Source: Streptomyces phaeoluteigriseus (GTDB lineage: Bacteria; Actinomycetota; Actinomycetes; Streptomycetales; Streptomycetaceae). From it: a DNA stretch of 64,000 bases. The position numbers and the translations under genes are program-made. The notes under the pieces are model-generated. The model was not told the DNA's origin and did no database searches. It saw only the letters and a program-made list of their open reading frames with translations. This document shows positions 12,561 to 63,790 of this stretch, piece after piece; positions within the stretch are counted from its first letter, which is position 1; the number at the start of each line of letters is the position of its first letter. The stretch covers positions 1,236,858-1,300,857 of the forward strand of contig NZ_MPOH02000011.1 in assembly GCF_001896135.2 (NCBI RefSeq), read 5' to 3'.

Positions 12561-13888
12561 ATGAGCGAGTTGGTTGCCGGGGCCAATGTGGCGCTGCCGG
12601 AGGGTGCCCTGGCCGTCCGGGTGTCGGGCCCCTTCGATGTGTGCGCGCTGGTCACGGACGACAGCGGCAAGGTGGGCGGGGACGGCGACTTCGTGTTCTA
12701 CAACCAGCCGACGGCGCCGGGGGCCGGGCTGCGGGGCGGCACGCTCACGCTGGAGCCGGCGCGGCTGCGGGCCGGGGCGACCCGGGTCACGGTGGTCGTC
12801 AGCGCGGTCGAGCCGGGCACCTCGCCGGGCGGACTGCCCGCGCCCACGCTCCAGGTCACCGACCGGCAGGGCCGTCCGCTCGCCCGGTTCACACCCCCGC
12901 CCGCCCGGCAGGAGACGGTCCTGCTGCTCGCGGAGGTGTACCGGCGCGGCGACGTCTGGAAGCTGCGGGCACTGGGGCAGGGGTACGCGGACGGACTGGC
13001 CGGGCTGGCCCGGGACTTCGGGGTGGAGGTCGCCGACGAAGGGACCGCCGCCCAGGGGTCTCCCGCGCCCCGAACCGCTGCCGCGCCGGCGCCCGCATCC
13101 GTTCGCGCCCCCGATCCGGAGGGGCTTTGGGGACCGGTCAACTCCGCTCGTGCCGGGGCCGGGTCACCGCCCGTCTCGCTGGACGCCCGGCTGGTCTCGG
13201 CGGCCCGCGCCCACGTCACCGCGATGGCCGCGGCCGGCCGGCTGGGCACCATGGGCGCCGACGGCGTCTCCGTCCACCAGCGCGTCACGGCCGCCGGCTT
13301 CCGCTACCTCGCCGTGGGCGAACACCTGGTCTCCGGTCCCCGCACCCCGGCCGAGTTCCTCGGGTACTGCCTGCGCACCGACCAGGCCCGGCGCACCCTG
13401 CACGATCCGGCGTTCACCCACGCCGGCCTGGCCCGGGCGGAGGACGGCCGCACCGGTGACGTCCTGTGGACGGCCCTGTGGGCGAGCCCGCTGACACCGG
13501 CCGGGCTGGCGGGGACCGAGGCGGAGGTCGTCGACCGCACCAACCGGGAGCGGGCGCGGGCGGGACTGCGGCCGCTCGCCGTCGATCCGCTGCTCGCCAC
13601 CGCCGCCCGGGCGCACAGCGCGGACATGGTCGCCCGTTCCTTCTACTCGCACACCTCGCCCGAGGGCGGCCGCCGTGGGACCGCGCCGCCGCCGCGGGTT
13701 CGGCGCGGCGGACGATCGGCGAGAACATCGCCTGCGGCCAGCGCTCCCCGGCCGAGGCGGTGGAGGGCTGGATGAACAGCCCCGGCCACCGCGCCAACAT
13801 CCTCGAGCCCGACTTCACCCACATCGGCGTCGGCTTCGCGGGCGGCGGTCCGTCCGGGACGTACTGGACCCAACTCTTCGGCGCCTGA
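12561..13888 (+). CDS. TerD-domain protein fused to two CAP/SCP domains (frameshifted)
   Basis: Repaired length is 442 aa. Residues about 1-175 form a TerD domain: SELVAGANVALPEG, then DFVFYNQPTAPG, and ETVLLLAEVYRRGDVWKLRA, the calcium-binding tellurite-resistance fold. After an Ala/Pro linker come two CAP (cysteine-rich secretory protein-like) modules. The first is diverged (AHVTAMAAAGRLGTMGADG). The second is canonical: LLATAARAHSADMVARSFYSH, then IGENIACG and GWMNSPGHRANIL. There is no signal peptide although CAP proteins are normally secreted. One C is missing near 13664. Calcium-linked stress function is inferred from the TerD part only. Confidence 0.75.
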
Positions 13889-14055
13889 CGCCCGATGGCC
13901 CCCGCCCGCCCGCTTCGGCCCGCCGAGTGATCTGCGCCTCACAGGCAACCCGGCCCGCCGTACGCACGTCTTGACCGGCGACACCACAGAGCATCCGGTG
14001 ACGCCCGCCCCGGCCACCCCACGGCCGGGGCACATTCCGGGCGCACTATACACGC

Positions 14056-14080
14056 CATGTATACACATAGCGTATACATG
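14056..14080. promoter_or_regulatory. AT-rich palindromic operator candidate before the TPR gene
   Basis: CATGTATAC (14056-14064), a 7-nt spacer, then GTATACATG (14072-14080): perfect 9-bp arms. A related TATACAC occurs just upstream at about 14047. It stands out sharply in 70%+ GC sequence and ends 18 bp before the start codon of the TPR gene, so it overlaps either the promoter or the leader. Symmetry suggests a dimeric repressor (TetR/GntR-like). The regulator is not identifiable here. Confidence 0.65.
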
Positions 14081-14097
14081 GTGGCCGAAAGGAATCG

Positions 14098-15168
14098 ATG
14101 TACGGCAAGGCTTCCGCCCCCGAGTATCAGGGCGCCCTCACCACCCTGTCCGTGAACTCCTCCCTGGTCGACGTACTGGCCGCCGGCACCGAGCGGTTGG
14201 CGGCCGCCGAGCGGGCCGGGGAGCGTGCCGAGGTGGCCCGCTCCGGGCTCGCCGTCGCCGAGGCCCACCGTCGGCTGGGCCAGGTGCGGGAGGCGGACCT
14301 GGCCTGGAAGGCGAGCTATCGCGCGGCCCGGGACGCGGGCGACGTGGCGGCGATGGCGTGGGCCCTGTGGAGCGGCGGCACACTGGCCCGGCAGCGGGGC
14401 GCCTTCCCGCTGGCCCGACGGCTGCTGGGGCTGGCGGCCGACCTCGGCGAGCGCGGCGGGGACGTCGTCGTCCGCGGGTACTCGCTGGCCGGGCTCGCGG
14501 AGACCGGCCGTATCCAGGGGGACTACGAGGCCGTCGGCCGGCTGCACGAGCAACTGCTCGCCGAGGCCCGCCGGCGCGGCGAGGCGCGGCACACGGTGTG
14601 GGCGCTGGAGGGCATCGCGCAGATGCACCGCAACTCCGGGGATCTCGACACCGCTCACGCCCTGTTCGAGGAGGCGGCCGAGATCTCGGCGCGCGCCGAC
14701 GACCGGCGGGGACACGCCTGGGCGCTGCGCGGCCTGGCCGACGTGGTCTCGACACGGGACGGCGACACCGAGCGCGCCCTCGCGCTGCTGTCCGAGGCGG
14801 AGACGACCTGCCGTGCGATGAACCTCACCGGAGCGCTGGCCTACAACCACAAGATGCGCGGCAACGTCCTGTACCGCGCCGCCCGTTACGCCGAGGCCCG
14901 GGACCTCTACGAACGGGCCCTCGCCGAGTTCGGCGCGATGAGCGAGCCGCGCGGGAAGGCCCTCGCCCGGCTCGGGCTCGCCAAGTCGCTGGCCCGCCTG
15001 GGCCGCGACCGCTCCGAGACGGCCAAGGAACTGACGGCCCTGGCCGGTGAGTTGGAGCGGATCGGGCTGCGGCACGCGCGGGAGATGGTGGGCCGGGCCG
15101 AAGAGGAACTGGGCATCGGGACGGACCCGGCCGGTCCGCGCGGCGAGACCGCGGAGGCCGTACGGTGA
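14098..15168 (+). CDS. TPR-repeat protein
   Basis: 356 aa, helical throughout, with repeated TPR-like pairs. Examples are SGDLDTAHALFEEAAEIS, TERALALLSEAETTC and ARYAEARDLYERALAEFG. Such proteins act as protein-binding scaffolds; no enzymatic domain or membrane segment is present. The ATG at 14098 follows GAAAGGAATC, a suitable ribosome-binding site. Its TGA stop overlaps the GTG start of the polyprenyl synthase (GTGA), so the two are made together. The palindrome just upstream suggests the pair is switchable. Confidence 0.75.
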   Translation: MYGKASAPEYQGALTTLSVNSSLVDVLAAGTERLAAAERAGERAEVARSGLAVAEAHRRLGQVREADLAWKASYRAARDAGDVAAMAWALWSGGTLARQRGAFPLARRLLGLAADLGERGGDVVVRGYSLAGLAETGRIQGDYEAVGRLHEQLLAEARRRGEARHTVWALEGIAQMHRNSGDLDTAHALFEEAAEISARADDRRGHAWALRGLADVVSTRDGDTERALALLSEAETTCRAMNLTGALAYNHKMRGNVLYRAARYAEARDLYERALAEFGAMSEPRGKALARLGLAKSLARLGRDRSETAKELTALAGELERIGLRHAREMVGRAEEELGIGTDPAGPRGETAEAVR

Positions 15169-16256
15169 CGCCCCTGTCCACCACGTTCTCCACGGGGTTC
15201 CCCCCGGCCGCGGCGGACCCCGCCGCGGCCTCGGCGGTGCGTCCGACTCCACCGGTCGCGCCGGCCGTTCTCGACCGCTGCCGCGCGCTGGTGCGGCCCG
15301 CGCTGGCCGAGGCGGTCGGCCGGCTGCATCCGTGGGTGGGAGAGATGGCCGCGTACTCCCTCGGCTGGTGCGAGGTCGGCGGAGCCCCTGCCGCCGCGTC
15401 CGGTGGGAAGGGGCTGCGGCAGGCCCTCGCCGTGCTCGGCGCGGAGGCGGCGGGGGCGCCCGCGCGGGCCGGTGTCGCCGCGGCCGTCTCCGTCGAACTC
15501 GTGCACACCTTCTCCCTGCTGCACGACGACATCATGGACGGCGACCCCACGCGAAGGAGCCGCCCCACCGTCTGGAAGGCCTACGGCACGGGACCCGCGG
15601 TCCTCGCGGGCGACGCCCTGTTCGCGCTGGCCGTGGAGACGCTCGCCGCGGCCCCGGGCGGCGCGGGCGGCGTACGGCTGCTGTCCGGGGCGCTCGCCGA
15701 GCTGGTGCACGGGCAGGCCGACGACCTGCTGTTCGCCGCGCGGCCCTGGTCGGGGCCCGAGCGGGTGCGGCCGGAGGCGTACCGGGCGATGGCCGAGGGC
15801 AAGACCGGCTCACTGCTGGGTTGCGCCGTCGCGCTGGGCGCCGTGCTCGGCGGTGCCCCGGAGGCGACCGTCATCGCCCTGGACCGGGCCGGGCGGCATC
15901 TGGGGATCGCCTTCCAGGTGGTCGACGACCTGCTGGGGATCTGGGGTGATCCGGCCGTGACCGGCAAGCCCGTCCACGGCGACCTGCGCGCGGGCAGGAA
16001 GACGTTCCCGGTGCTGGCGGCACTGGAGTCCCCCGCACCGGCGGCCCGACGCCTGGCCCGGCTGCTGGAGTCGGGGGGCGACCCGGCCGAGGCGGCCGTA
16101 CTGGTCGAGGAGGCCGGGGGCCGGACGGCGGCGCTCGCCGAGGCGCGCCGACAGGTGTCCGCCGTGGAGTCGGCGCTCGCCGGGGTGCCGCTGCGGACGC
16201 GGGCCGCGGGCGACCTGCGGTCGCTGCTCGACTTCCTGGTGCGGCGCGACCTCTGA
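15165..16256 (+). CDS. Polyprenyl (geranylgeranyl-type) diphosphate synthase
   Basis: 363 aa, all-alpha trans-prenyltransferase. The first Asp-rich motif is HDDIMDGDPTRRSRPTVW. The second is reduced to QVVDDLLGIWGDP, a form seen in many Streptomyces synthases of 15-20 carbon chains. GKGLRQAL at about residue 82 is the substrate-binding G-K-x-x-R region. It condenses isopentenyl diphosphate with allylic diphosphates in the cytoplasm, feeding terpenoids, quinones or carotenoids. There is no terpene cyclase next to it. The GTG start overlaps the TPR stop codon. Confidence 0.85.
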   Translation: MTPLSTTFSTGFPPAAADPAAASAVRPTPPVAPAVLDRCRALVRPALAEAVGRLHPWVGEMAAYSLGWCEVGGAPAAASGGKGLRQALAVLGAEAAGAPARAGVAAAVSVELVHTFSLLHDDIMDGDPTRRSRPTVWKAYGTGPAVLAGDALFALAVETLAAAPGGAGGVRLLSGALAELVHGQADDLLFAARPWSGPERVRPEAYRAMAEGKTGSLLGCAVALGAVLGGAPEATVIALDRAGRHLGIAFQVVDDLLGIWGDPAVTGKPVHGDLRAGRKTFPVLAALESPAPAARRLARLLESGGDPAEAAVLVEEAGGRTAALAEARRQVSAVESALAGVPLRTRAAGDLRSLLDFLVRRDL

Positions 16257-44314: not shown

Positions 44315-44349
44315 CCCACGCAGCGACCGCACCGCAGTTGGGAGAACAG

Positions 44350-46392
44350 ATGGCACGCCGTACCCGCACCGGACGGACCCTCGGGGCCGCCGGACTGACC
44401 GCTCTGGCCACAGCAGGCGCCCTGCTCGCCGTTCCGGCGCAGGCCGAGGCCGCCGCGTCCGTCACCGTGCAGCCGGACCCGTCGTACCAGCAGGAGAAGT
44501 TCGAGGGCTGGGGCACCAGTCTCGTCTGGTTCGCCAACGCGACCGGCGACTATCCGCCGGAGATACGCGAGAAGCTGGCGCGGCTCCTCTTCGGCGACGA
44601 CGGGCTGGCGCTCAACATCGCCCGGTACAACATCGGCGGCGGCAACGCCCCGGACGTCAAGGACTACCTGCGCGCCGGCGGTGCGGTCGAGGGCTGGTGG
44701 AAGGCGCCCGCGGGCACCACCCGCACGGACACCGACTGGTGGAGCGCCGACGACCCGGCGGACTGGAACAAGGACGCCGACGCCGGCCAGCGCTGGTGGG
44801 TCGACCGGATCAAGGACGACATCGACCACTGGGAGACGTTCAGCAACTCCCCGCCGTGGTTCATGACCGTCAGCGGCTATGTCTCCGGCGGGTTCGACTC
44901 CAGTGCGGAGCAGTTGAAGCCGGAGTCCGTCGACGACTTCGCCGCCTACGTGGCGGGGGCGACCAAACTGCTGGAGAAGGCCGAGGGCATCAAGGTCGAC
45001 ACGGTCGACCCGTTCAACGAGCCGAACACCAACTACTGGGGCACCCGTCTCGGTGCGGACGGCCAGCCGGTCGGCGGCCGTCAGGAGGGTGCCCACATCG
45101 GCCCCGAGATGCAGCAGAAGGTCCTCGCCGCCCTGGCGCCGGCGCTGAAGAAGGCCAAGGTCAAGGCCGAGATCTCGGCGATGGACGAGACCAACCCGGG
45201 CATCTTCGCGACCAACTGGAACGCCTACTCGCAGGCCTCCCGCGACCTCGTCGACCAGATGAACGTCCACACCTACGGCACCGGGCAGCGCACCACCGTC
45301 CGGGACCTGGCCAAGGCCGCCGACAAGCCGCTGTGGATGAGCGAGGTCGAGGGCGACTGGGGCGACGGCCAGAGCTTCACCGACATGCGGCCGGGTCTCG
45401 GTCTCGCCCAGCAGATGGTGAACGACCTGCGCGAACTCGAGCCCAGCGCCTGGGTGTTCTGGCAGCCGGTCGAGGACCTCGACAACATGAGGCCGGGCGG
45501 TGAATCGGCGAAGGGCGGCAACTGGGGCAGCATCCAGCTCCCGTTCAGCTGCACCTCGACGGACACCCTCGAGTCCTGCCCGATCCACACCAACACCAAG
45601 TTCGACACCGCGCGCAACTTCACGCACTTCATCAAGCCCGGCGACAAGCTGATCAAGGTGGACGACACCTCCAGCGCCGCCGCCGTCACCGCGGACGGCA
45701 AGGGCGCCTCACTCGTCCACGTCAACAGCACGACCGAGGCCCGCACCGTCACGATCGACCTGTCGAAGTTCCGCAAGGTCGGTAAGAACGCGACCGTCAC
45801 GCCGGTGGTCACCAGCGCCGACGGCAAGCTCCAGCCGCAGGCGCCGATCGCGGTCAGCGACCGCCGGGCCACCTTCACCGTGCCCGCCCAGTCGGTGACC
45901 TCCTTCGCCGTCAGGGGCGTGTCCGGTGTCGCCAAGGACGCCCCGCTGATCCGCAAGGGCCACACCTACACGCTGACCGGCGTGCAGAGCGGCAAGGCGG
46001 TCACCGTCGCCGCGAACGGCACCAGCCTGGTGATCGGCACCGGCAACGGCACCGCGGCCCAGCAGTGGCAGCTCGACGCCCGGTACGGCGGGACCGGCGC
46101 CCGCCAGCGGTACGTGTTCGCCAACCCGGCCGAGGGCAAGCGGCTGGCCGTCCGCGACAACGTGCCCGTGGTCGAGCCCGACACGGGCGAGCGCGACCCG
46201 GCCACCGAGTGGGTCATGTCGACCACCGGTGACGGCACCTGGACCCTGGTGAACCCGGCCACCAGCCGGGTCCTGGAGGTGGGCGGCCAGGCGACGAACG
46301 AGGGCGCCGCCGTCACGACCTGGCAGCCCAACTCCGGCTCCAACCAGCGCTGGAGGGTGACGGACGTGACGGACGTGACGGACGCGTCGTAG
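44350..46392 (+). CDS. Secreted GH30 endo-beta-1,6-galactanase with ricin-type lectin tail
   Basis: 680 aa. A signal peptide (cleavage near AEAAAS) shows export. The GH30 catalytic domain starts KFEGWGTSLVWFANATGDYP; the acid/base is Glu224 in DPFNEPNTNYWG and the nucleophile Glu332 in MSEVEGDWG. A beta-sandwich closes the catalytic unit. The last 135 residues resemble a ricin B/CBM13 lectin (QWQLDARYGGTGARQRY, QRWRVTDV). The subfamily look is that of Streptomyces enzymes cutting beta-1,6-galactan side chains of arabinogalactan. Products would feed the ABC importer and GH42 encoded upstream. Confidence 0.85.
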   Translation: MARRTRTGRTLGAAGLTALATAGALLAVPAQAEAAASVTVQPDPSYQQEKFEGWGTSLVWFANATGDYPPEIREKLARLLFGDDGLALNIARYNIGGGNAPDVKDYLRAGGAVEGWWKAPAGTTRTDTDWWSADDPADWNKDADAGQRWWVDRIKDDIDHWETFSNSPPWFMTVSGYVSGGFDSSAEQLKPESVDDFAAYVAGATKLLEKAEGIKVDTVDPFNEPNTNYWGTRLGADGQPVGGRQEGAHIGPEMQQKVLAALAPALKKAKVKAEISAMDETNPGIFATNWNAYSQASRDLVDQMNVHTYGTGQRTTVRDLAKAADKPLWMSEVEGDWGDGQSFTDMRPGLGLAQQMVNDLRELEPSAWVFWQPVEDLDNMRPGGESAKGGNWGSIQLPFSCTSTDTLESCPIHTNTKFDTARNFTHFIKPGDKLIKVDDTSSAAAVTADGKGASLVHVNSTTEARTVTIDLSKFRKVGKNATVTPVVTSADGKLQPQAPIAVSDRRATFTVPAQSVTSFAVRGVSGVAKDAPLIRKGHTYTLTGVQSGKAVTVAANGTSLVIGTGNGTAAQQWQLDARYGGTGARQRYVFANPAEGKRLAVRDNVPVVEPDTGERDPATEWVMSTTGDGTWTLVNPATSRVLEVGGQATNEGAAVTTWQPNSGSNQRWRVTDVTDVTDAS

Positions 46393-46478: not shown

Positions 46479-48050
46479 TCAGGTGCGCAGCGCCTTGCGC
46501 GCGTCGCCGCGCGTGGCGGCCCGCCACAGCTGCGGCAGCTCCCGTTCCCGGCCGGCGGCCCCGGCCTGCTCCCGGCCGTACAGCAGGCCCCAGGTGAACC
46601 CGGGTTCGCCGACCCGGTGGGCGGCGACGGCCTGGCGGCGCAGGGTCTCGCGGGCCACGACGCTGTCGTGGTGGTCTCCGAGCGCCTCCTGCACGGCCTT
46701 GACGCGCTTGGCGAGGCGTTTCGCGGCACCGCCGAGGGCGGGCCGGGCCACCTCGGCCGCGTACCGGACGCGCTTGGCTCCCTTGCGGGCCTCGTGGAAG
46801 GCGGCGTCGCGCTCCGGCCCCGCAGGCGTCCGCAGCGCGCGCTCGACGCGGTGGGCGAGGCGGTCGTGTTCCTTCAGAAGGGCCCGGGGCAGCACCTTGG
46901 CCGGCTTCCTGGCGGCCTTCGCACGCAGCGGCGGGTGGGTGGTGAGCCGGTCCAGGGCTTCCAGGAGGGCCACGTAGCGGGGCGAGGACAGCGCCGCGAG
47001 GGTGCGGTCGCGGGCCTCGGACGAGCGGGCGGCGTCCCATGCCTGGAGGCGGGCGGAGACCGGGCCGAGGACGAGTTCGCCGGGAAGAGCGTCGACGCCG
47101 CCGCGCAACCGTGCCAGCAGTACCTCCTGGTCCCGTTCGGCGCCCAGCTCGCCGCCGAGCCACTTCAGCTCCGCCCGGACCGGCTCGGTGACCTCCCGGT
47201 CGAGGAGCGGGCGGTAGGAGCGCAGGCAGCTGCGCAGCCGACGGCAGGCGACGCGCATCTGGTGGACCGAGTCCGGCAGGCCGCGTCGTACGGCCGGATC
47301 GAGGTCCACGACGGCACGGGCCTGTCGGGTCAGGTAGGCGAGCACGTGCTCGCCGGCGGTGCCGGACGCGGTGCCGCACGCTGTGCCGACGGGTCGCGGC
47401 GCGGCGGGCACCGTGCCGGGCGTGGTTTCGCTCAGGGCGCGGGCCGCCTTGGACGGGGCGTCCGAGCGGGTGAAACCCTCCTTGCCGAGCGCCTTCTCGA
47501 CGCGTTTGAGGACGGTGGGGGCGGTGTCCTCGGTGACCGCTTCGACCTCCAGCTCCGTCCAGGCGGCGTGGCCGTGGTCGCCGCGCAGCGAGTCCGCGCG
47601 GACCCGGTCGAGGGTCAGCTCGGCGAGGAGGCCGCCGTCGGCGTCGACCAGTTCCCGCACGGTCCGTTCGGTGCGCAGGCGCACCACCGGTTCGAGGCGG
47701 GCGCCGCGGGTCCGGGAGAGCGCCAGGTCACGCAGGCCCTCCGGAATGTCGTGCGGGTTTCCGCGATCGTGCGTCCCGAGGGGTACGCGGATCTCCTCGC
47801 GGGTGTCCTCGCCGAGCGGCAGTTTCAGGTGCCAGCCGGCGTCGGGGCCGCCCTCGCGGCGGCGCAGGGTCGCGGAGGCGCGGAGCAGGCGCAGGTCAGC
47901 GGTGTCGTAGTACACCGCGTCCAGGTCGTGGGCGCCCCCGTCCACGAGTGACCAGTCCTTGCCCGAGCCGGTCAGTCCTGGCAGGCGTGGGGCGTCGCCC
48001 GATGCCGGCACCTCGTATTTCCGTTCCGTCTCCCGCGTCGACTGCGTCAT
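46479..48050 (-). CDS. CYTH-CHAD domain protein
   Basis: 523 aa. The CYTH domain (about 1-210) has the E-x-E-x-K signature TERKYEV plus DAVYYDTADLRLL and LRRREGG, a tunnel fold that binds triphosphate or polyphosphate with metal. The CHAD domain (about 235-520) is helical and His/Arg-rich (VHQMRVACRRLRSCLRSYRP, GAKRVRYAAE, ALGDHHDSVVA), a polyphosphate-binding fold. It probably binds or hydrolyses inorganic polyphosphate. It begins only 28 bp after STM4011 and looks like the last gene of that operon, an unusual partner for it. Confidence 0.88.
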   Translation of the reverse strand: MTQSTRETERKYEVPASGDAPRLPGLTGSGKDWSLVDGGAHDLDAVYYDTADLRLLRASATLRRREGGPDAGWHLKLPLGEDTREEIRVPLGTHDRGNPHDIPEGLRDLALSRTRGARLEPVVRLRTERTVRELVDADGGLLAELTLDRVRADSLRGDHGHAAWTELEVEAVTEDTAPTVLKRVEKALGKEGFTRSDAPSKAARALSETTPGTVPAAPRPVGTACGTASGTAGEHVLAYLTRQARAVVDLDPAVRRGLPDSVHQMRVACRRLRSCLRSYRPLLDREVTEPVRAELKWLGGELGAERDQEVLLARLRGGVDALPGELVLGPVSARLQAWDAARSSEARDRTLAALSSPRYVALLEALDRLTTHPPLRAKAARKPAKVLPRALLKEHDRLAHRVERALRTPAGPERDAAFHEARKGAKRVRYAAEVARPALGGAAKRLAKRVKAVQEALGDHHDSVVARETLRRQAVAAHRVGEPGFTWGLLYGREQAGAAGRERELPQLWRAATRGDARKALRT

Positions 48051-48078
48051 GTCTACCTGGTTGACACTCTGCGCCGGA

Positions 48079-48981
48079 TCAAACGCCCGGAGCGCCGGCC
48101 GGCACGGGACCCGGCAGGTCGACGGCGTGCCGCGCGGGCACGGTGGCCGGGACGCGCTCCAGCACACCGCCCGCGAAGACGTCGTACAGGGGCAGTGTCT
48201 CCAGGTGGACGTAGCCGATGTGGCAGTCGCAGACGGCCAGCGGGCAGGCGCGGGGACGCAGTGCCGCGCGGTAGGAGCCGTCGTAGAGGTTGCCGAGCGG
48301 GGCGGGGACGAAGTGGCAGCGGCGGACGGTGCCCTCGCCGTCGACGGAGACCACCGAGTCACCGGTGCGGCAGGGCAGGCCGGCGCTGGTGTGCGGGTGG
48401 CGGCTGTAAGGGAACAGCGGGTCGAGGTCCGTCCACCGGGCGGCGTCGGCGTCGCTGTAGGTGTGGCCCTCGGCGGCGTTGATCCACAGGTACACGTGCT
48501 CGGGGAGGTCGGTGCGCAGCCGGCGGGCCGCGTCGAGGTGTTCGGGCAGGCCGACGACGCCGACGCTGAAGCGGATGCCGCGCGCGGTGAGGTCGCGGCA
48601 CTTGGTGAGGAAGCGGTCGTAGGGGGTCTGGCCGGGGTGGTAGGTGCACCACAGGGCGAGGGTGTCGGGGTCGGCCTCGGCGAGCCAGTCGGTGCGGCAG
48701 CTCAGGTTGGTCTGGATGGCGACCCGGCGGACGTGCGGGAGGCGGGACAGGTCGGCGAGGGTTCGCCGGTACCAGGAGCGGACCAGGCCCTCGCCCCAGG
48801 GGGTGAACAGCAGGGAGAGACGGTCGTCGGTCTGCCGTGCGGCCCAGTCGGCGAAGCGGTCCAGGGCGTCGCGGTCGGCGCGCAGTTGGGCACCGGTGTC
48901 GCGCCGCTTCGCGAACGGGCAGTAGGGGCAGTCGTAGTCGCAGGAGGCGAGGGGGCCGCGGTAGAGCAGTGTCAGGTCCAT
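48079..48981 (-). CDS. STM4011-family radical SAM protein
   Basis: 300 aa. The [4Fe-4S] cluster motif is CDYDCPYCPFAKR (C-x3-C-x2-C) at the very N-terminus. Further markers are LLFTPWGEGLVRSWY, QTNLSCRTDWLAE and a Cys-rich C-terminal part (CHFVPAPLGN, ACPLAVCDCHIGY) that may hold a second cluster. Radical SAM enzymes split S-adenosylmethionine to start radical chemistry. The family is named after a Salmonella gene of unknown function that occurs beside the same partners. It starts 9 bp after STM4012. Confidence 0.85.
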   Translation of the reverse strand: MDLTLLYRGPLASCDYDCPYCPFAKRRDTGAQLRADRDALDRFADWAARQTDDRLSLLFTPWGEGLVRSWYRRTLADLSRLPHVRRVAIQTNLSCRTDWLAEADPDTLALWCTYHPGQTPYDRFLTKCRDLTARGIRFSVGVVGLPEHLDAARRLRTDLPEHVYLWINAAEGHTYSDADAARWTDLDPLFPYSRHPHTSAGLPCRTGDSVVSVDGEGTVRRCHFVPAPLGNLYDGSYRAALRPRACPLAVCDCHIGYVHLETLPLYDVFAGGVLERVPATVPARHAVDLPGPVPAGAPGV

Positions 48982-48990
48982 GACGGGCGG

Positions 48991-50373
48991 TCACTTCCTC
49001 TCGTAGGCGGCCATGGCGGCCCGCACGGCCGGGGAGAACAGGCCGGGGCCGATCGCGTCGGAGTGGGCGAGGCCCTCCGGGGTGAGCCGGAGGACGGCCG
49101 GGTCGTCGGCCAGCCAGCCGTGCTCGGCGAGGCGCTCCAGTTCGGGGCCGAAGTCGTCGGCGGGGGCGGCGCCGAAGCGGGCCCGGTAGTCGTCGGTGCG
49201 CAGGCCGTCGGCCTGGAGGAGGGACTGGAGGAGGTGGCGGCGGCGCGCCTCCTGGGCGTCCATGGCGTGGCCGACCTCGGCGTGGGAGAAGTCGGCGGTC
49301 GTGACGTAGTCGTCGATGATCGCGCGGATCTCGTGCATGTCGACGGCGTAGTCGAAGGAGTAGTGCAGGCGGGCCGTGTAGGAACGGGCGCCGCAGCCGA
49401 GGCCGATCATGCCGTCGGTCTGGCAGGCGTAGTCGTCGGCGCCCTGGGAGGGGGCGTCCGCGCGGCGGAACATGCGCATGGACTGCTGGGTGTAGCCGTG
49501 CGCGAGGAGGTGGTCGCGGCCCGCCCGGTACAGGCGCAGCCGCTGCTCGTCCCAGTCGGGGTCGGGGCCGGTCCGGCGGCGGTCGAGGCCGGTGAGGGGG
49601 CGGATGTACAGCGGGTAGAGGTACAGCTCCTCGGGGCGCCAGTCGAGGGCCGCGTCCAGTGAGTGGCGCCAGGTGTCCTCGGTCTGGCCGTCGATGCCGT
49701 AGATGAGGTCGATGTTGAGGACCGGTACGCGGGCGTCGCGGACGCGGCCGAGGGCGGCCTCGACATCGGCGCGGCGCTGCGGGCGTACGGCGGCACGGGC
49801 CTCGGAGTCGATGAAGCTCTGCACGCCGAGGCTGAGCCGGGTGGCACCGCGCCCGGCCAGGACGGCGAGCCGGTCGGCGGTGGCGGTGGCGGGCGAGGCC
49901 TCGACGGACAGCGGGACCGCGCGCAGGTCGGCGCCCATGCGGTGCTCGGCGATGTCGCAGAGGCGGTCCAGTTCGGCGGCGGTGAGGAAGGTGGGGGTGC
50001 CGCCGCCGAAGGCCGCGGTGGCGAAGCGGACCTCGTCGCTGTCCCCGAGCGCCGCGCGTACGGCGTCCGCCTGGCGTTCGAGCGCGTCGAGGTAGGCGCC
50101 GGTCAGGCCGTCGGGTGCGCCGATGCGGGTGAAGAGGTTGCAGAAGCCGCAGCGGACCTCGCAGAACGGGATGTGCAGATAGAGGGAGAGGGCGTCCTTC
50201 GGTTCGGCCGCCCACAGGGTGCTCAGCGGGGGGCGGTCGGGGAGCGTGCGGTAGGCGGTCTTGTGCGGGTAGGCGTAGACGTAGTGCTGGTAGGGGCTGG
50301 GGCGGGTGGTCGGCTCGGCGCTGGTCGGCTCGGCGCTGGTCGGCTCGGCGCTGGTCGGCTCGGCGGTGGTCAT
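48991..50373 (-). CDS. STM4012-family radical SAM protein (HemN-like)
   Basis: 460 aa. The cluster motif LHIPFCEVRCGFCNLF has the C-x3-C-x2-C spacing and layout of HemN-type radical SAM enzymes. AFGGGTPTFLTAAEL, ATRLSLGVQSF and NIDLIYGIDGQTEDTW are the family's SAM-binding and barrel motifs. A HemN C-terminal-like domain follows (GLGCGARSY). The substrate is unknown. Its N-terminus begins with four tandem S-A-E-P-T units from a 15-bp repeat. ATG at 50373 should overlap the stop of STM4013 as ATGA once the upstream frameshift is repaired. Confidence 0.87.
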   Translation of the reverse strand: MTTAEPTSAEPTSAEPTSAEPTTRPSPYQHYVYAYPHKTAYRTLPDRPPLSTLWAAEPKDALSLYLHIPFCEVRCGFCNLFTRIGAPDGLTGAYLDALERQADAVRAALGDSDEVRFATAAFGGGTPTFLTAAELDRLCDIAEHRMGADLRAVPLSVEASPATATADRLAVLAGRGATRLSLGVQSFIDSEARAAVRPQRRADVEAALGRVRDARVPVLNIDLIYGIDGQTEDTWRHSLDAALDWRPEELYLYPLYIRPLTGLDRRRTGPDPDWDEQRLRLYRAGRDHLLAHGYTQQSMRMFRRADAPSQGADDYACQTDGMIGLGCGARSYTARLHYSFDYAVDMHEIRAIIDDYVTTADFSHAEVGHAMDAQEARRRHLLQSLLQADGLRTDDYRARFGAAPADDFGPELERLAEHGWLADDPAVLRLTPEGLAHSDAIGPGLFSPAVRAAMAAYERK

Positions 50374-51340
50374 CGGGTGGCCGTCCGTCGGGACGGGGTG
50401 CGGGGTCGGGTGCCGGGTCGGCTGTGGGGTCGGGTGCCGGGTCGAGGACGAAATGGGCGTAGGGCACGGTCCACACGGACTCGTGGCCGAGGCGGTGGCC
50501 CGTGTAGCCGTCGTCGCCGTAGGCGGTGCCGTGGTCGGAGCAGACGATCGCGAAGCAGCGGCGCCGACTGCTCGCCGCCGCGAACAGCCGCCCGATGTGC
50601 CGGTCGACGTACTCCAGCGCGGCGGCGTGCGTCTCGCGGGTGTCGCCGGACTCGCGGGTCGCGCCGGGCAGGTGGAACCAGTTCGGCTGGTGCAGCGCGG
50701 AGACGTTGACGAACAGGAACAGGCGCTGTTCGGCCGGGAGTTCGCGTACGACGCGTTCGGCGCGGGCCACCTGGTTCTCGAAGGAGTGGGGCGAGGTGAC
50801 GCCGAACTCCGTCTCCCAGTGGGACTCGTGGAAGAGGCCGGGCAGCACCGAGCCCAGCGGGCCCTGCTTGTTGAAGAACCCCACTCCCCCGACGCACACG
50901 GTGTGGTAGCCCGCCTTCGCCAGGCCGGACACCAGGTCGGGGGTGTCGTGGACGAAGGTTTTGTCGGCGGTGGTCTCGCTGCCGGCGAAGCTCGCGGCGA
51001 ACAGGCGTGGGTGCGGTCCGGGGGCGGCCGGGGTGGGCAGGAAGCCGGCGAAGATCGCCTGGTGGGAGGCGTAGGTGAAGCTGCCGGGGGCGTGCCGCTT
51101 CTCCCAGCGGCCGCCGGGGAGGTGGCGGGCGAGGTTCGGCAGGCGGCCGGCGGCGGCGAGTTCGGCGGCGACGTCGTGGCGCAGGGTGTCGAGGGTGACG
51201 AGCAGGAGGTCGTGGCTGCCCACCACCTCGTTCATGTCCGGTCCGTCTGCGTCCGGCTGGTTCCTGTCCCGCTCGATCATGTCCGGTCCGTCTGCGTCCG
51301 GCTGGTTCCTGTCCGGCTGGATCATGTCCGGCTCACGCAT
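50370..51340 (-). CDS. STM4013/SEN3800-family hydrolase (sulfatase/phosphatase fold, frameshifted end)
   Basis: About 323 aa after repair. The alkaline-phosphatase-like fold is seen in DLLLVTLDTLRHDVAAEL, with the metal Asp pair and Thr nucleophile, and in FAIVCSDHGTAYGDDGYTGH near the end. SFTYASHQAIFAGFLPT is typical of the superfamily. It would cleave a phosphate or sulfate ester. The frame should shift near 50395 in a C run: adding a C gives a stop whose bases overlap the STM4012 start (ATGA). The start at 51340 overlaps the STM4014 stop by 8 bp. The first 36 residues are two copies of a 14-residue unit (DRNQPDADGPDM). Confidence 0.78.
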
Positions 51341-52467
51341 GAGGTGTTCCTGTTCTGTGCCGGGCGTGGGCGCCGCCCAGGGCTGCGGCCACCTGGGTGG
51401 CGTAGGTGTCGAGGCCCTCGGCGCCGCTGCCGGGGAGGCCGGTGAGCCGGGGCAGCAGGTCGCCGAAGGCGTTGACCTCTCCGACGGCGGATCTGCGCCA
51501 GTCGACGGCCGGCAGCAGGTCGACGCCCACGCAGAGGGTGCGCGGGAAGCAGGCGGCCGCCCGTTCGCACACGTCCAGCAGGTCGGACCAGCGGGCGCCC
51601 GCCGCCTCGACGGCCTGCCGGGCCGTGTCGAGGTCGCCGCGGCTGCCGCCGAGGTGGAGGTTCGTCAGGGGCGAGCTGCTGGTACGGACCACCGCGTGGG
51701 TGCCCGGCCGGCCACGACGACGACCCGCAGGTCGGCGGCGCGGCCCCGCTGGGAGGCCTTCGGCAGCCAGCGCTCCAGGTGCAGGCCGTCGGGGGCGAGC
51801 GCGTCGACGATGGTCGCGATGTCCCGCTCGTCCTCGTAGCGACGCACCCTGAGCGAGTTGAACAGGCTGCCGTCGGCGGTGAGTTCCACCGAGGTGGTGG
51901 CCCTGATCCGCCCCGGTCCGCCCGTCTCCACGGCCAGCACCCCCGACGCGGACGAACCGTGCGCGGGCTTGACGAACAACCGCGGCATCCGGTGCTCCCG
52001 CATCAGCGCCCGTACGTCGTCCCAGCCGCGCACCGTGGCGGCCGACGGACCCGAGGTGGGCGAGGCGGGAACCGGTACACCGGCCGAGTGGAGGACGGCG
52101 TGGCAGCGCCGCTTGTCGAACAGCACGGGAAGGTCGTCCGGGTCGTCGAGCCGGACGCCGCCGCGCAGTCCGGCGAGCGCGGCGGTGAACCCGGCGTACC
52201 AGCGGGCCGAGCCCTCGACCCGGGTGGGGTCGCCGGTGCCGCGCAGCAGCCGGTCGACCTGCGTGTTCTCCCCCGGTGAGTCGATCCGGACGATCTCCTC
52301 GGGGCCGAACTCGGCCCGCCCGCGCGAAGGACGTCCGTCCAGGCGACGACGCGCGGAGCGGGGAGTCCGGCCGCGAGCACGGCCTCCGCGAAGAGGGTGA
52401 CGCGACGGTTCTCGGGGTTGCCGACGACCGCGAAGCGCGGCCGCCGACGGGGGGCGGGCCGCTGCAC
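51333..52467 (-). CDS. STM4014-family protein, ATP-grasp-like (two frameshifts)
   Basis: 378 aa once two bases are added. The three segments are PRFAVVGNPENRRVTLFAEA; then, in the next frame, EIVRIDSPGENTQVDRLL, FDKRRCHAVLHSAGVPVPA and RLFVKPAHGSSASGVLAVE; and last RTSSSPLTNLHLGGSRGD. The middle and end look like the lysine and Mg-binding Asn regions of a RimK-type ATP-grasp ligase. Missing bases: one near 52319 in a GGGC run, another near 51706 (CGGGGC read as CGGGC). It likely joins a carboxylate to an amine or peptide using ATP. GTG start at 52467 with ACAGGA upstream. Confidence 0.72.
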
Positions 52468-52504
52468 GGCGTCCTGTCGTGAGGTGTTCGCGGTCAGGGG
52501 GTGT

Positions 52505-53464
52505 TCACTCCCCCACGGCCACGTACCGCCACACCGTGCCGTCGTCTTCCTGTTCCTCGTCGGCGTCGTCGCGGTCCAGGTCCACCTCGACGCCCTCGGT
52601 CTCGATGGTCCGGCGGATCCGGTCCTGGAGAGCCTCGCTGAGGTAGTGGTGGTGCAGGTCGAGCTTCTTCAGATGGGTGAGCGGCTGTCCGGCGAGGAGC
52701 GCGGCGGCGCCCTCGTCGGTGAGGATGCCCATGGACAGGTCCAGGACCTCCAGGCGGGCGACCACCGGCGCGGAGGCCACCGCGGCGGCGACGGCGTCCT
52801 GCATCTCGCTGTTGCGCAGCGCCAGGTGGCGCAGGCGCGGCAGGCGGGCACCGGACAGGATCGGCTCCAGGTCGGCGGCCTCGCTGTCGCCGCCGTAGTC
52901 CGGGGTGCCCAGCCACAGGTCGAGGTGCTCCAGCGCGGGCAGGTCGCTGGCGCCGACCCCGCGCACGACCTCGGCGGGCAGGCCGCCGGCCTCCATGGTG
53001 AGCCGGCGCAGGGCGCGGTGCTCCAGCGCGGGGAAGCGCAGTCCCGAGCCGCCACGGACGCCGAACTCCTCCAGGTCCGGGTAGGCGACGAGGAGGGGGG
53101 TCAGGTCGGTCTGGTTGATCCAGGAGATCTCGCACTCCTCGACGACCATGTCCCCGACGAACAGCGCCCGCAGCGCGGGAAAGCGCTCCCGGGCCGCCAC
53201 CAGCGCCGCGACGACGGACGAGGGATCACTGTCGTACGCCTCCTCCCAGGCGCCGACGATCAGCGCGCGCACCCGGGTCGTGTCGACGGCTTCGCAGAAG
53301 CGGGCGAAGGCCTGCGTCCACTCCTCCTCCGCGTCGTACACGCCACCGCTGATCCGCCAGGCGAAGGCGTCCGGCTCGGGCAGGTCGTCGGTCCGCGCGT
53401 CGGGGCCCGGGAAGTTGTAGGCGGGCAGCCGGTACAGCGCGTCGAGGTGGTCACCGATCGTCAT
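52505..53464 (-). CDS. STM4015-family leucine-rich-repeat protein
   Basis: 319 aa, acidic. The N-terminal third has the family start (DHLDALYRLPAYNFPGP, AFAWRISGGVYDAEEEW). From about residue 120 leucine-rich repeats follow (LEEFGVRGGSGLRFPAL, LEHLDLWLGTPDYGG, LRHLALRNSEMQDAV, LTHLKKLDLHHHYLSE). It has no catalytic motif, so it is probably a binding or recognition subunit for the rest of the system. First gene of the operon; ATG at 53464. Intact, unlike its paralogue at 62823. Confidence 0.85.
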   Translation of the reverse strand: MTIGDHLDALYRLPAYNFPGPDARTDDLPEPDAFAWRISGGVYDAEEEWTQAFARFCEAVDTTRVRALIVGAWEEAYDSDPSSVVAALVAARERFPALRALFVGDMVVEECEISWINQTDLTPLLVAYPDLEEFGVRGGSGLRFPALEHRALRRLTMEAGGLPAEVVRGVGASDLPALEHLDLWLGTPDYGGDSEAADLEPILSGARLPRLRHLALRNSEMQDAVAAAVASAPVVARLEVLDLSMGILTDEGAAALLAGQPLTHLKKLDLHHHYLSEALQDRIRRTIETEGVEVDLDRDDADEEQEDDGTVWRYVAVGE

Positions 53465-53647: not shown

Positions 53648-53974
53648 GTGTACCGGCAGGGAGACGTACTGATCGTTCCGGTGGCCGAGGGGGCCGTGCC
53701 CGCGCATGTCGCCGCCGCGCCGAGGGAGCCTCGTGACCGGCGGGGCCGGCTGGTGCTTGCGCTGGGCGAGGTGACCGGGCACGCCCACGCGGTCGTCGGA
53801 CCGGGGGAACTGGTGCGGGAGCCGGGGCCGTTCGGCCCGATGTTGCTGCACCTGCCGCAGGGCGGCCAGGTGGTGCACGAGGAGCATGCGGTGATCTCCC
53901 TGCCCAAGGGGTGGTTCCGGGTGATCCGGCAGCGGGAGTACGTGCCGGGGTCCGTGCGGATCGTGGCGGACTGA
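53648..53974 (+). CDS. Small protein of unknown function upstream of DUF6745 gene
   Basis: 108 aa, starting at GTG 53648 behind GGGAGGGAGG. The sequence is well ordered: YRQGDVLIVPVAEGAVPAHV, LALGEVTGHAHAVVGPGEL, then LHLPQGGQVVHEEHAVISLP and a closing RQREYVPGSVRI. A beta-rich fold with a G-H-A-H and a later H-E-E-H motif is suggestive of metal binding. I do not recognise a named family. It is divergent from the STM4015 operon (183 bp between starts) and lies 32 bp before the DUF6745 gene, likely cotranscribed. Confidence 0.7.
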   Translation: MYRQGDVLIVPVAEGAVPAHVAAAPREPRDRRGRLVLALGEVTGHAHAVVGPGELVREPGPFGPMLLHLPQGGQVVHEEHAVISLPKGWFRVIRQREYVPGSVRIVAD

Positions 53975-54006
53975 GCGGGGTGGCGGCGAAGATGACGGAG
54001 GAGCGG

Positions 54007-55251
54007 ATGGCAGGCACGGACGGTACGAGCGCGACCGGTCCGCGGGGCACGGACGGTACGAGCGCAGCCGGACCGCGGGACACGGCCGTCGGGGACGTCG
54101 GGTTGTGGCGCGCGTGCGCGGCGGCGGCCGTCCCCGCCGATCGGGTGGCCGCCGAGGCCGGTGTCCGGCGCGCCTACCGGCGGGCCGGTCTGGCGGAGCC
54201 GGAGCGGGTGCTGTGGGCCGCCTCCCCGCGCGAGGCGGTCACGCTGATACGCGCGCTGGACGACCCGGGACCCAGTGTCCGGGAGGCGGTCCGCACGGCC
54301 CCCTGGGCACGCGAACGGGCTCGGCTGCACGCCGAGTTGGGGCCCGCCGGCTGGGCGGCGCACTGGGCGGCGACGGGTGGCCGCCTGTGGGAGACCACGC
54401 AGGTGCTCGTCGAGCGGATCCGGCGCGGCGTGCTGGACGAGATGACCGACGGGACGGGGACAGCGGGGGCGGGGCCGGGGACTGGGACCGCGGCTCGGAC
54501 CGGGGCTGGGACCGGGACCGGCACGGGGACAGGGACTGAGGCTCGGACCGGGGCTGGGACCGGGACCGGCACGGGGACAGGGACTGAGGCTCGGACCGGT
54601 GCGGGGACCGGTGGCCGGGCCGCCGAGGCCGAGTTGCGGCTGCTCCTGCTGGACGCCGTGCTCGGGCAGCACGACGCGCCGTGGCTCGCCGCGTTCCCCA
54701 CCGACCGGGAGCCGCTCGACGGGCTGGCCGCGGTGTGCCGCAACGCCGGCTGGTGGTGGCCCTTCGCCAGGGTCGCGGTGGTGTGTGAACGCCCCGTCGC
54801 CCTGCACCGCGACGAGGCGGGCCGCCTGGACCGCGGGGACGGCCCGGCACTGGCCTACCCCGACGGTTTCGCCCTGTACGCCTGGCGTGGCATGCCGGTC
54901 CCCGCCGCGTTCCTCGCGGAGCTGACCGCTCTGACACCGGACCGGATCCGGGCCGAGGAGAACGCCGAGCTGCGCCGGGTGATGCTGGAGCACTACGGCT
55001 ACGACCGCTATCTCGCCGACTCCGGCGCACGGCCGCTGCACCGGGACGAGACGGGCACCCTGTGGCGGATCGACCTGGACGGCGACGAGCCGGTGGTGAT
55101 GGTGGAGGTCCTCAACTCCACACCGGAACCGGACGGCACCCGGCGCACCTACTGGCTGCGGGTGCCGCCGTCGACCCGGACGGCCCGCGAGGGGGTCGCC
55201 TGGACGTTCGGACTGCGACCGGACGTGTACGCGCCGGTGCGCGAGACCTGA
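54007..55251 (+). CDS. DUF6745-family protein with internal repeat insertion
   Basis: 414 aa. The C-terminal half carries the family blocks NAGWWWPFARVAVVCERP, then DGPALAYPDGFALYAWRGMP, VMLEHYGYDRYLADSG and VMVEVLNSTPEPDGTRRTYW. No enzymatic motif is evident. In the middle (about residues 160-200) lies a Gly/Thr insertion translated from a 48-bp tandem repeat. The N-terminus has another small repeat (GTDGTSA). Start at ATG 54007, preceded by GGAGGAG; an ATG at 53992 lacks one. Divergent to the STM operon, so co-regulation with it is possible. Confidence 0.78.
   Translation: MAGTDGTSATGPRGTDGTSAAGPRDTAVGDVGLWRACAAAAVPADRVAAEAGVRRAYRRAGLAEPERVLWAASPREAVTLIRALDDPGPSVREAVRTAPWARERARLHAELGPAGWAAHWAATGGRLWETTQVLVERIRRGVLDEMTDGTGTAGAGPGTGTAARTGAGTGTGTGTGTEARTGAGTGTGTGTGTEARTGAGTGGRAAEAELRLLLLDAVLGQHDAPWLAAFPTDREPLDGLAAVCRNAGWWWPFARVAVVCERPVALHRDEAGRLDRGDGPALAYPDGFALYAWRGMPVPAAFLAELTALTPDRIRAEENAELRRVMLEHYGYDRYLADSGARPLHRDETGTLWRIDLDGDEPVVMVEVLNSTPEPDGTRRTYWLRVPPSTRTAREGVAWTFGLRPDVYAPVRET
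54493..54606 (+). repeat. 48-bp in-frame tandem repeat
   Basis: Two identical 48-bp units (54493-54540 and 54541-54588) begin GCTCGGACCGGGGCTGG, followed by an 18-bp partial third copy. Each encodes 16 residues (ARTGAGTGTGTGTGTE), so changes in copy number keep the reading frame. The repeat lies within the DUF6745 gene. Confidence 0.85.
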
Positions 55252-62743: not shown

Positions 62744-62822
62744 GGCTGTCCGTGGTCCCTGCTAGAAAGGGCGCCCCGGCCGGCACCACGTCGGCCGTCG
62801 TGCGAGCCGGAGGCTCTTGAGC

Positions 62823-63790
62823 ATGGACCACATAGCGGAACTGCACGGCCTGCCCGTCCACCACTTCCCGGCCCCGGGGCAGGACGCGGGGACGTTACCG
62901 GCGGCGGAGACGGTCGCCTGGCGGCTGTCCGCGGACGAGGACCGGGGCGGTGAGTCGTTCGAGGAGGGCTGGGAGCGCTTCCTGCACACCGTGGACCCCG
63001 CGCGGGTGCGGGCCCTGGTGCTGGGGGTCGGCGCCTACGGCAGCGAATTGGACGCCGCCGATCCCGCGACGACGGCGAAACTGCTCGCCGACGCCGCCGG
63101 CCGCCTGACCGGGCTGGAGGCCCTCTACCTCGCCGACCTCACCTTCGAGGAGTGCGAGCTGTCCTGGATCGTCCAGGGCGACGTGACCCCGATCCTCGCC
63201 GCCTACCCGCGGCTCGAGGAACTCGCGGTGCGCGGATCGAACGGCGGGTTCGACGGCGAGCCGGGGCTGGACTTCGCCCCGATCCGTCACGAGCGTCTGC
63301 GCACACTGCGGTTCGAGAACGGAGGTCTGCCCTCCTCGGTGGCCCGCGGTGTCGCCGCCTCGGATCTGCCCGCGCTGGAACGGCTGGACATGTGGCTCGG
63401 CACGGAGGACTACGGCCGTTCCGCCTCCGTCGCCGATCTCGCGCCCGTCCTGGACGGCGGCCGGCTGCCGCCCTGCGCGACCTGGGCCTGCGCAACGCGG
63501 ACATCCAGGACGAGATCGCCGCGGCCGTCGCGGCCGCTCCCGTCGTGGCCCGGCTCTCCACGCTGCGGCTGAGCCTGGGCACCCTCGGCGACGCCGGCGC
63601 CGAGGCGCTGCTCGGCGGCCAGCCCCTGACGCACCTGGCGGAACTCGACCTCCACCACCACTACCTGTCCGAGCCGATGACGGGCCGCCTGCGTGAGGCG
63701 CTGGAGCCGTCCGGCGTGCGGGTCGACCTCGACGACCGCCAGAGGGCGGACGCCGAGGGCCACGGGCGGTACGTGTCAGCCGGGGAGTGA
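62823..63790 (+). CDS. Second STM4015-family leucine-rich-repeat protein (frameshifted)
   Basis: 322 aa after repair. It shares the layout of the STM4015 gene at 52505: the N-terminal DHIAELHGLPVHHFPAPG, then ECELSWIVQGDVTPILAAYP, LERLDMWLGTEDYG and LTHLAELDLHHHYLSEPM at the end. One base is missing near 63469 (GGCTGCCG reading into CCCTGCGC); adding it joins GGRLP to ALRDLGLRNADIQD. It has no STM4011-4014 partners beside it; pyc is convergent next door. ATG at 62823 (GGAGG about 10 nt upstream); TTG at 62817 is possible. Confidence 0.82.

Follow-up and report, generated by a model that had tools for sequence, protein, structure and literature searches.

What is the function of an operon whose genes belong together in many bacterial phyla and that is named by NCBIfam but unexplained in the literature that we found? 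The question is raised by a 64,000-nucleotide stretch of Streptomyces phaeoluteigriseus (contig NZ_MPOH02000011.1; the whole stretch is here called the window), in which the genes STM4011–STM4015 encode two radical S-adenosylmethionine (SAM) proteins (STM4011 and STM4012), a hydrolase (STM4013), an ATP-grasp ligase (STM4014) and a leucine-rich repeat (LRR) protein (STM4015). Because STM4015, with its Glu-ended tail, is encoded beside an enzyme related to protein-end ligases, the operon probably modifies, or builds on, that tail; we give an even chance to the specific proposal that STM4011–STM4015 serve to modify a protein tail, or to carry out a synthesis tethered to a protein, with STM4015 as the substrate or carrier. 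For an operon of many phyla, including Salmonella, Bacteroides and Streptomyces, this narrows the focus to the last Glu of STM4015 and to STM4014. New here are the tail and a corrected list of partners, with up108 and DUF6745 in and CHAD out.

The linkage of the five genes is far beyond chance. We compared 107 loci: 20 came from genomes of relatives of the window or of its phylum (L045–L064), 7 from plasmid records and 80 from genome contigs that cover many phyla. The five STM genes stand together, mostly in the same order, in 96 of them. The complete set is found in Actinomycetota, Proteobacteria, Myxococcota, Planctomycetes, Chloroflexota, Bacteroidota, Deinococcota, Acidobacteria and Bacillota; nearly all of the 20 genomes from relatives and phylum have the colinear order STM4015-4014-4013-4012-4011, with STM4015 missing or partial on two contigs. 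This wide, ordered conservation supports the sequence-only reading made earlier of this DNA, which had seen a single pathway in the ligase, the two radical enzymes, the hydrolase and the LRR protein. The literature searched yielded no more than two incidental mentions and no functional study of the operon.

Judged by comparison of its homologues, the terminal tail of STM4015 is conserved. The bodies of the proteins vary in length and share about 31–60% identity across lineages; after a variable, often acidic linker, they end in the consensus R-[YF]-[VIT]-A-[VL]-[SGAT]-Glu. The C-terminal residue is Glu in 150 of the 155 copies, and the five others comprise three of one paralogue type ending GIGA (family f3), one short overlapping open reading frame (ORF) and one copy with AVSE plus four extra residues. 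Among 50 representatives of less than 60% identity, the final Glu is exact in 47, and the last position holds 3.9 of 4.3 bits, the preceding six positions 2.0–3.0 bits and the linker just before them approximately 1 bit. The tail is retained even in strongly diverged LRR proteins of the family (L079), and the carrier-type invariant C-terminal Glu, by which amino-group carrier proteins are judged, is found in STM4015; among the four enzymes STM4011–STM4014, a final Glu occurs in 7 of 415 cases. As predicted, the structure of the window's STM4015 has a high-confidence body and a predicted local distance difference test score (pLDDT) of 60–67 at residues 301–319, and given this lower confidence, the tail is probably flexible. 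The family has a solved structure, 2ra8, an LRR protein of Bacteroides fragilis with no assigned function, on which the literature searched yielded no paper.

The second line of evidence comes from STM4014. The best solved matches to its profile are LysX (1uc8/1uc9, 7e-7), 3vpd and RimK (5zct/4iwx), and it has conserved Lys, Asp, Glu and Asn at the typical ATP-grasp positions. In the LysW system, the substrate is attached by LysX at the gamma-carboxylate of Glu54, the C-terminal residue of LysW, within the motif EDWGE (PMC10433800), and negatively charged residues of LysW-type carriers serve recognition (PMC9303977). The resemblance to LysW/LysX (and ArgW/ArgX) lies in a carrier whose acidic tail must end in Glu (PMC10433800, PMC9303977) and in the ligase, LysX being the best, if weak, solved match to STM4014. 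The systems differ in that LysW is a small zinc protein with Zn-binding Cys, ending in EDWGE, while STM4015 is an LRR protein with another tail, and in that the partners of LysW are a kinase, a reductase, a transaminase and a peptidase, while those of STM4015 include radical SAM enzymes. In the polyglutamylation of S6 (RimABK), RimK similarly adds residues, namely Glu, to the C-terminus of a protein, RpsF/S6 (PMC7343187), but the target is ribosomal and there are no radical SAM partners.

By its sequence, STM4015 consists of a folded LRR body, a variable and often acidic linker, and a conserved C-terminal heptapeptide with an obligatory final Glu; in the mechanism that we infer, this Glu would be the point of chemistry. 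STM4014 would activate a carboxylate of this Glu and couple it to an amino compound or an amino acid. Radical chemistry on the tail or the adduct, by STM4012 and STM4011, would follow, and STM4013 would use its Thr nucleophile to take off or pass on a phosphate or phosphodiester group. What we observe are the genes, the tail and the family matches; the ligation, the order of the steps and the product are our reconstruction from them.

Variation in gene content provides natural controls. Across 61 relatives, STM4015 and STM4011 co-occur over the cut-offs in 24 genomes, and in G336, the only one where STM4015 occurs and STM4011 is not matched, STM4015 has lost its tail (...SISVGPLTY, L193). Furthermore, two-gene loci (L186–L191, L194, L200 and L201) combine a tail-bearing STM4015 with an STM4014-like protein, most of the genomes in question also holding the full operon. 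These controls tie the tail to STM4014-type proteins, short of proof of ligation. At some two-gene loci, a small lipoprotein-like gene follows the pair.

Several observations weigh against ligation at the tail. The STM4014-like proteins of the two-gene loci have lost the ATP-grasp catalytic residues in the five that were aligned, and because some tail-bearing STM4015 proteins are paired with such degenerate partners, proteins of the STM4014 type may bind the tail and ligate nothing to it. One genome that has the operon (G342) carries an orphan STM4015 without the tail (L192), and G027 has kept the tail with STM4011 only as a fragment. The match of STM4014 to LysX and RimK is weak, the Pfam matches are mixed and weaker, with ATPgrasp_ST matched by more members than RimK, and the GSWGR loop with which LysX reads the LysW tail is replaced by a GSSASG-like one. 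The families that recur next to the operon across phyla include, among those listed, no LysZ/Y/J/K and no release peptidase.

The degenerate partners lend some weight to a different role for the tail, that of a docking or recognition peptide through which STM4015, as an LRR adaptor, would guide the enzymes to some other target. In general, LRR domains serve binding; STM4015 copies are frequently found in tandem (1–6 per locus) and have diverged, and at two-gene loci the tail-bearing copies stand next to catalytically degenerate STM4014-like proteins. We nevertheless consider docking a minority possibility: the most constrained residue sits exactly at the terminus, for which chemistry at the carboxyl end is a better fit, and enzymes that ligate to protein C-termini are among the best solved matches of STM4014.

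The two radical SAM proteins suggest yet another division of labor. STM4012 is closest to HemN (1olt, 1.7e-59) and to the radical SAM methyltransferase NocN (9p2u). STM4011 has invariant Cys at positions 14, 18, 21, 204, 222, 246, 251 and 253, that is, the radical SAM triad and five more in a SPASM/twitch-like pattern; its C-terminus has no SPASM match in Pfam and weakly resembles SkfB, a peptide-modifying enzyme (E=0.001). With such matches, the tail could be the core region of a system like those of ribosomally synthesized and posttranslationally modified peptides, altered mainly by the radical SAM enzymes: the last Glu, with its propionate-like side chain, could be the target of STM4012, a HemN relative, and the Tyr or Val that of STM4011. 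This we find distinctly unlikely, as the body of STM4015 is, by its predicted model, a folded protein of 300 residues and not a leader peptide, and among the clustered neighboring ORFs of at least 70 residues there is no recurrent peptidase, transporter or exporter, nor a short precursor gene (shorter ORFs were not searched). This bears on the sequence-only reading too: a joint pathway is supported, its likely substrate being the STM4015 tail rather than the product of a hidden short precursor gene. Apart from seven families already found, the same clustering listed families mostly confined to one genus or close group, and a comparison with anti-phage defense systems (PADLOC) gave no convincing match, only a weak, partial one for STM4012.

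STM4013 aligns with nucleotide pyrophosphatase/phosphodiesterases (NPP), including their Thr motif, and in all 26 of 26 sequences compared, the nucleophile is a Thr by position. Since sulfatases have Cys or Ser there, a phospho(di)ester is the likelier target of the hydrolase, for which the earlier reading had left both phospho- and sulfo-esters open. For the same reason, we consider unlikely a sulfatase chemistry matured by STM4011 as an enzyme of the anaerobic sulfatase-maturating (anSME) kind.

ATP-grasp, radical SAM and phosphodiesterase-like enzymes are often builders of metabolites, and STM4011–STM4014 could make a free small molecule that STM4015 only senses or regulates, the tail being structural. 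A conserved and probably flexible tail beyond a variable linker would be unexpected in a purely structural element, and neither would one expect the frequent tandem amplification of STM4015; we regard this explanation as very improbable. Returning to chemistry on the tail, the lack of a conserved peptidase or transporter nearby suggests that the LRR protein may keep the product attached. Pearlins (PEARL) offer a parallel, being gene-encoded carriers that undergo chemistry at their C-terminus, with a radical SAM enzyme in the synthesis of 3-thiahomoleucine (PMC9303977), but they are loaded by an aminoacyl-tRNA-dependent ligase and released by a protease, neither of which is seen at the STM loci. 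It is conceivable, if unlikely, that STM4015 represents an unrecognized class of carriers, LRR proteins that hold a covalent group on their obligatory C-terminal Glu and retain it as a built-in cofactor or signal, its builders being two radical SAM enzymes and a ligase of the LysX/RimK type. If true, the proposal for STM4015 could add a class of protein-tethered chemistry, and its single-residue prediction is accessible to mass spectrometry. The NCBIfam models STM4011–STM4015 match all five window genes; STM4013–STM4015 are labeled as hypothetical equivalogs, and the family names mention neither the tail nor the ligase kinship nor the partners up108 and DUF6745.

Coordinates of the STM operon and related features in the window
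Feature	Position	Strand	Details
STM4015-family LRR protein	52505..53464	-	319 aa, C-terminus ...DDGTVWRYVAVGE; NF038076 416 bits; same family as solved structure 2ra8
STM4015 C-terminal tail	52505..52543	-	...DGTVWRYVAVGE then stop; proposed modification/attachment site; Glu invariant at end in A9/A11
STM4014-family ATP-grasp ligase gene, broken	51333..52467	-	NF038074 in two pieces; intact in relatives
STM4013-family alkaline-phosphatase-superfamily hydrolase	50370..51340	-	core 51340-50446; NF038075 430 bits; frame lost beyond core
STM4012-family radical SAM protein, HemN/HemW/HutW-like	48991..50373	-	NF006067 652 bits; HemN 1olt, NocN 9p2u
STM4011-family radical SAM protein, SPASM/twitch-like Cys-rich C-terminus	48079..48981	-	NF038073 415 bits
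CYTH-CHAD protein, local neighbor outside conserved system	46479..48050	-	PF05235/PF01928
up108, unnamed ~108 aa protein, divergent from STM4015	53648..53974	+	conserved His/Glu; C-terminus ...RIVAD
DUF6745 protein	53911..55251	+	PF20530 393 bits; GTG start 53911, in-frame ATG 53992
Second, orphan STM4015 paralogue, one frameshift	62817..63790	+	tail ...GRYVSAGE

The sequence-only reading had described six tightly packed minus-strand genes. All six are present, each recognized by a family model (NCBIfam for the five STM genes, Pfam for CYTH and CHAD), and the gaps of 37, -8, 9 and 28 bp agree with the coordinates; the overlap of -4 between STM4013 and STM4012 exists only if one base is missing there, and STM4014 and STM4013 are not clean frames in this assembly, the genes being intact in relatives. 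STM4014 is spread over three frames, its two profile pieces scoring 253 bits (over the cut-off) and 127 bits (below it), with single-base deletions near 52322 and 51702 in comparison with the intact homologue of a relative (L047). STM4013 is whole over its conserved core (profile positions 1–260 of 261), after which the frame remains open to 48359, across STM4012. In synonymous and nonsynonymous divergence from L047, the broken genes are similar to the intact ones, and the ratio of the two divergences (dN/dS) is as low in the former as in the latter, which suggests that the frameshifts are recent or are sequence or assembly errors. In L137, too, an orphan STM4015 similar to the window's second copy is located close to the operon; its tail reads ...DRYVSAGE.

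Under the criterion that the earlier reading itself had set, the proposed link to CHAD and polyphosphate did not survive as a general feature: CHAD is beside the STM genes in 0 of the 107 loci, and we reject it as a component of the system. Given the 28 bp gap, it may be cotranscribed with the STM genes in this one strain. The CHAD gene of the window stands between STM4011 and a GH30 gene (44344–46392); in L047, GH30 (13280–15304) comes directly after STM4011.

DUF6745, whose recurrence the earlier reading had raised as a question, does recur; it and up108 form an accessory module, present at roughly two in three of the complete loci (64/96). The pair is divergent upstream in Streptomyces, convergent downstream in Deinococcus and codirectional ahead of STM4015 in Methylobacterium, and as its placement and direction vary in this way between lineages, several independent linkages are suggested. 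The pair is absent from the Salmonella and Bacteroides loci and also occurs without the STM enzymes, as in Deinococcus ficus (L072, 6989–12477), where a VWA-domain protein is its neighbor and a glutathionylspermidine synthase-like protein lies at a greater distance. up108 has no match in Pfam or NCBIfam; it is predicted to have a beta fold, confidently except for the tail, with no significant match among solved structures. It ends in Asp in 66 of 67 cases, DUF6745 ending in [QE]T in 64 of 67, and with its own conserved acidic end, up108 may be a second substrate. The DUF6745 proteins of Deinococcus and Methylobacterium (L068, L069 and L070) have an LRR-looking N-terminal stretch, unlike those of Streptomyces.

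STM4011 is accompanied by a HAD-type hydrolase in Bacteroides, as a fusion, and in Salmonella, as a neighbor (L065, 9965–11530; L066, 10834–11568). As to a viral origin of the operon, one IMG/VR contig (L204) carries all five genes, with Bacteroides-like proteins that include the STM4011-HAD fusion and an STM4015 with an apparent N-terminal WGR domain.

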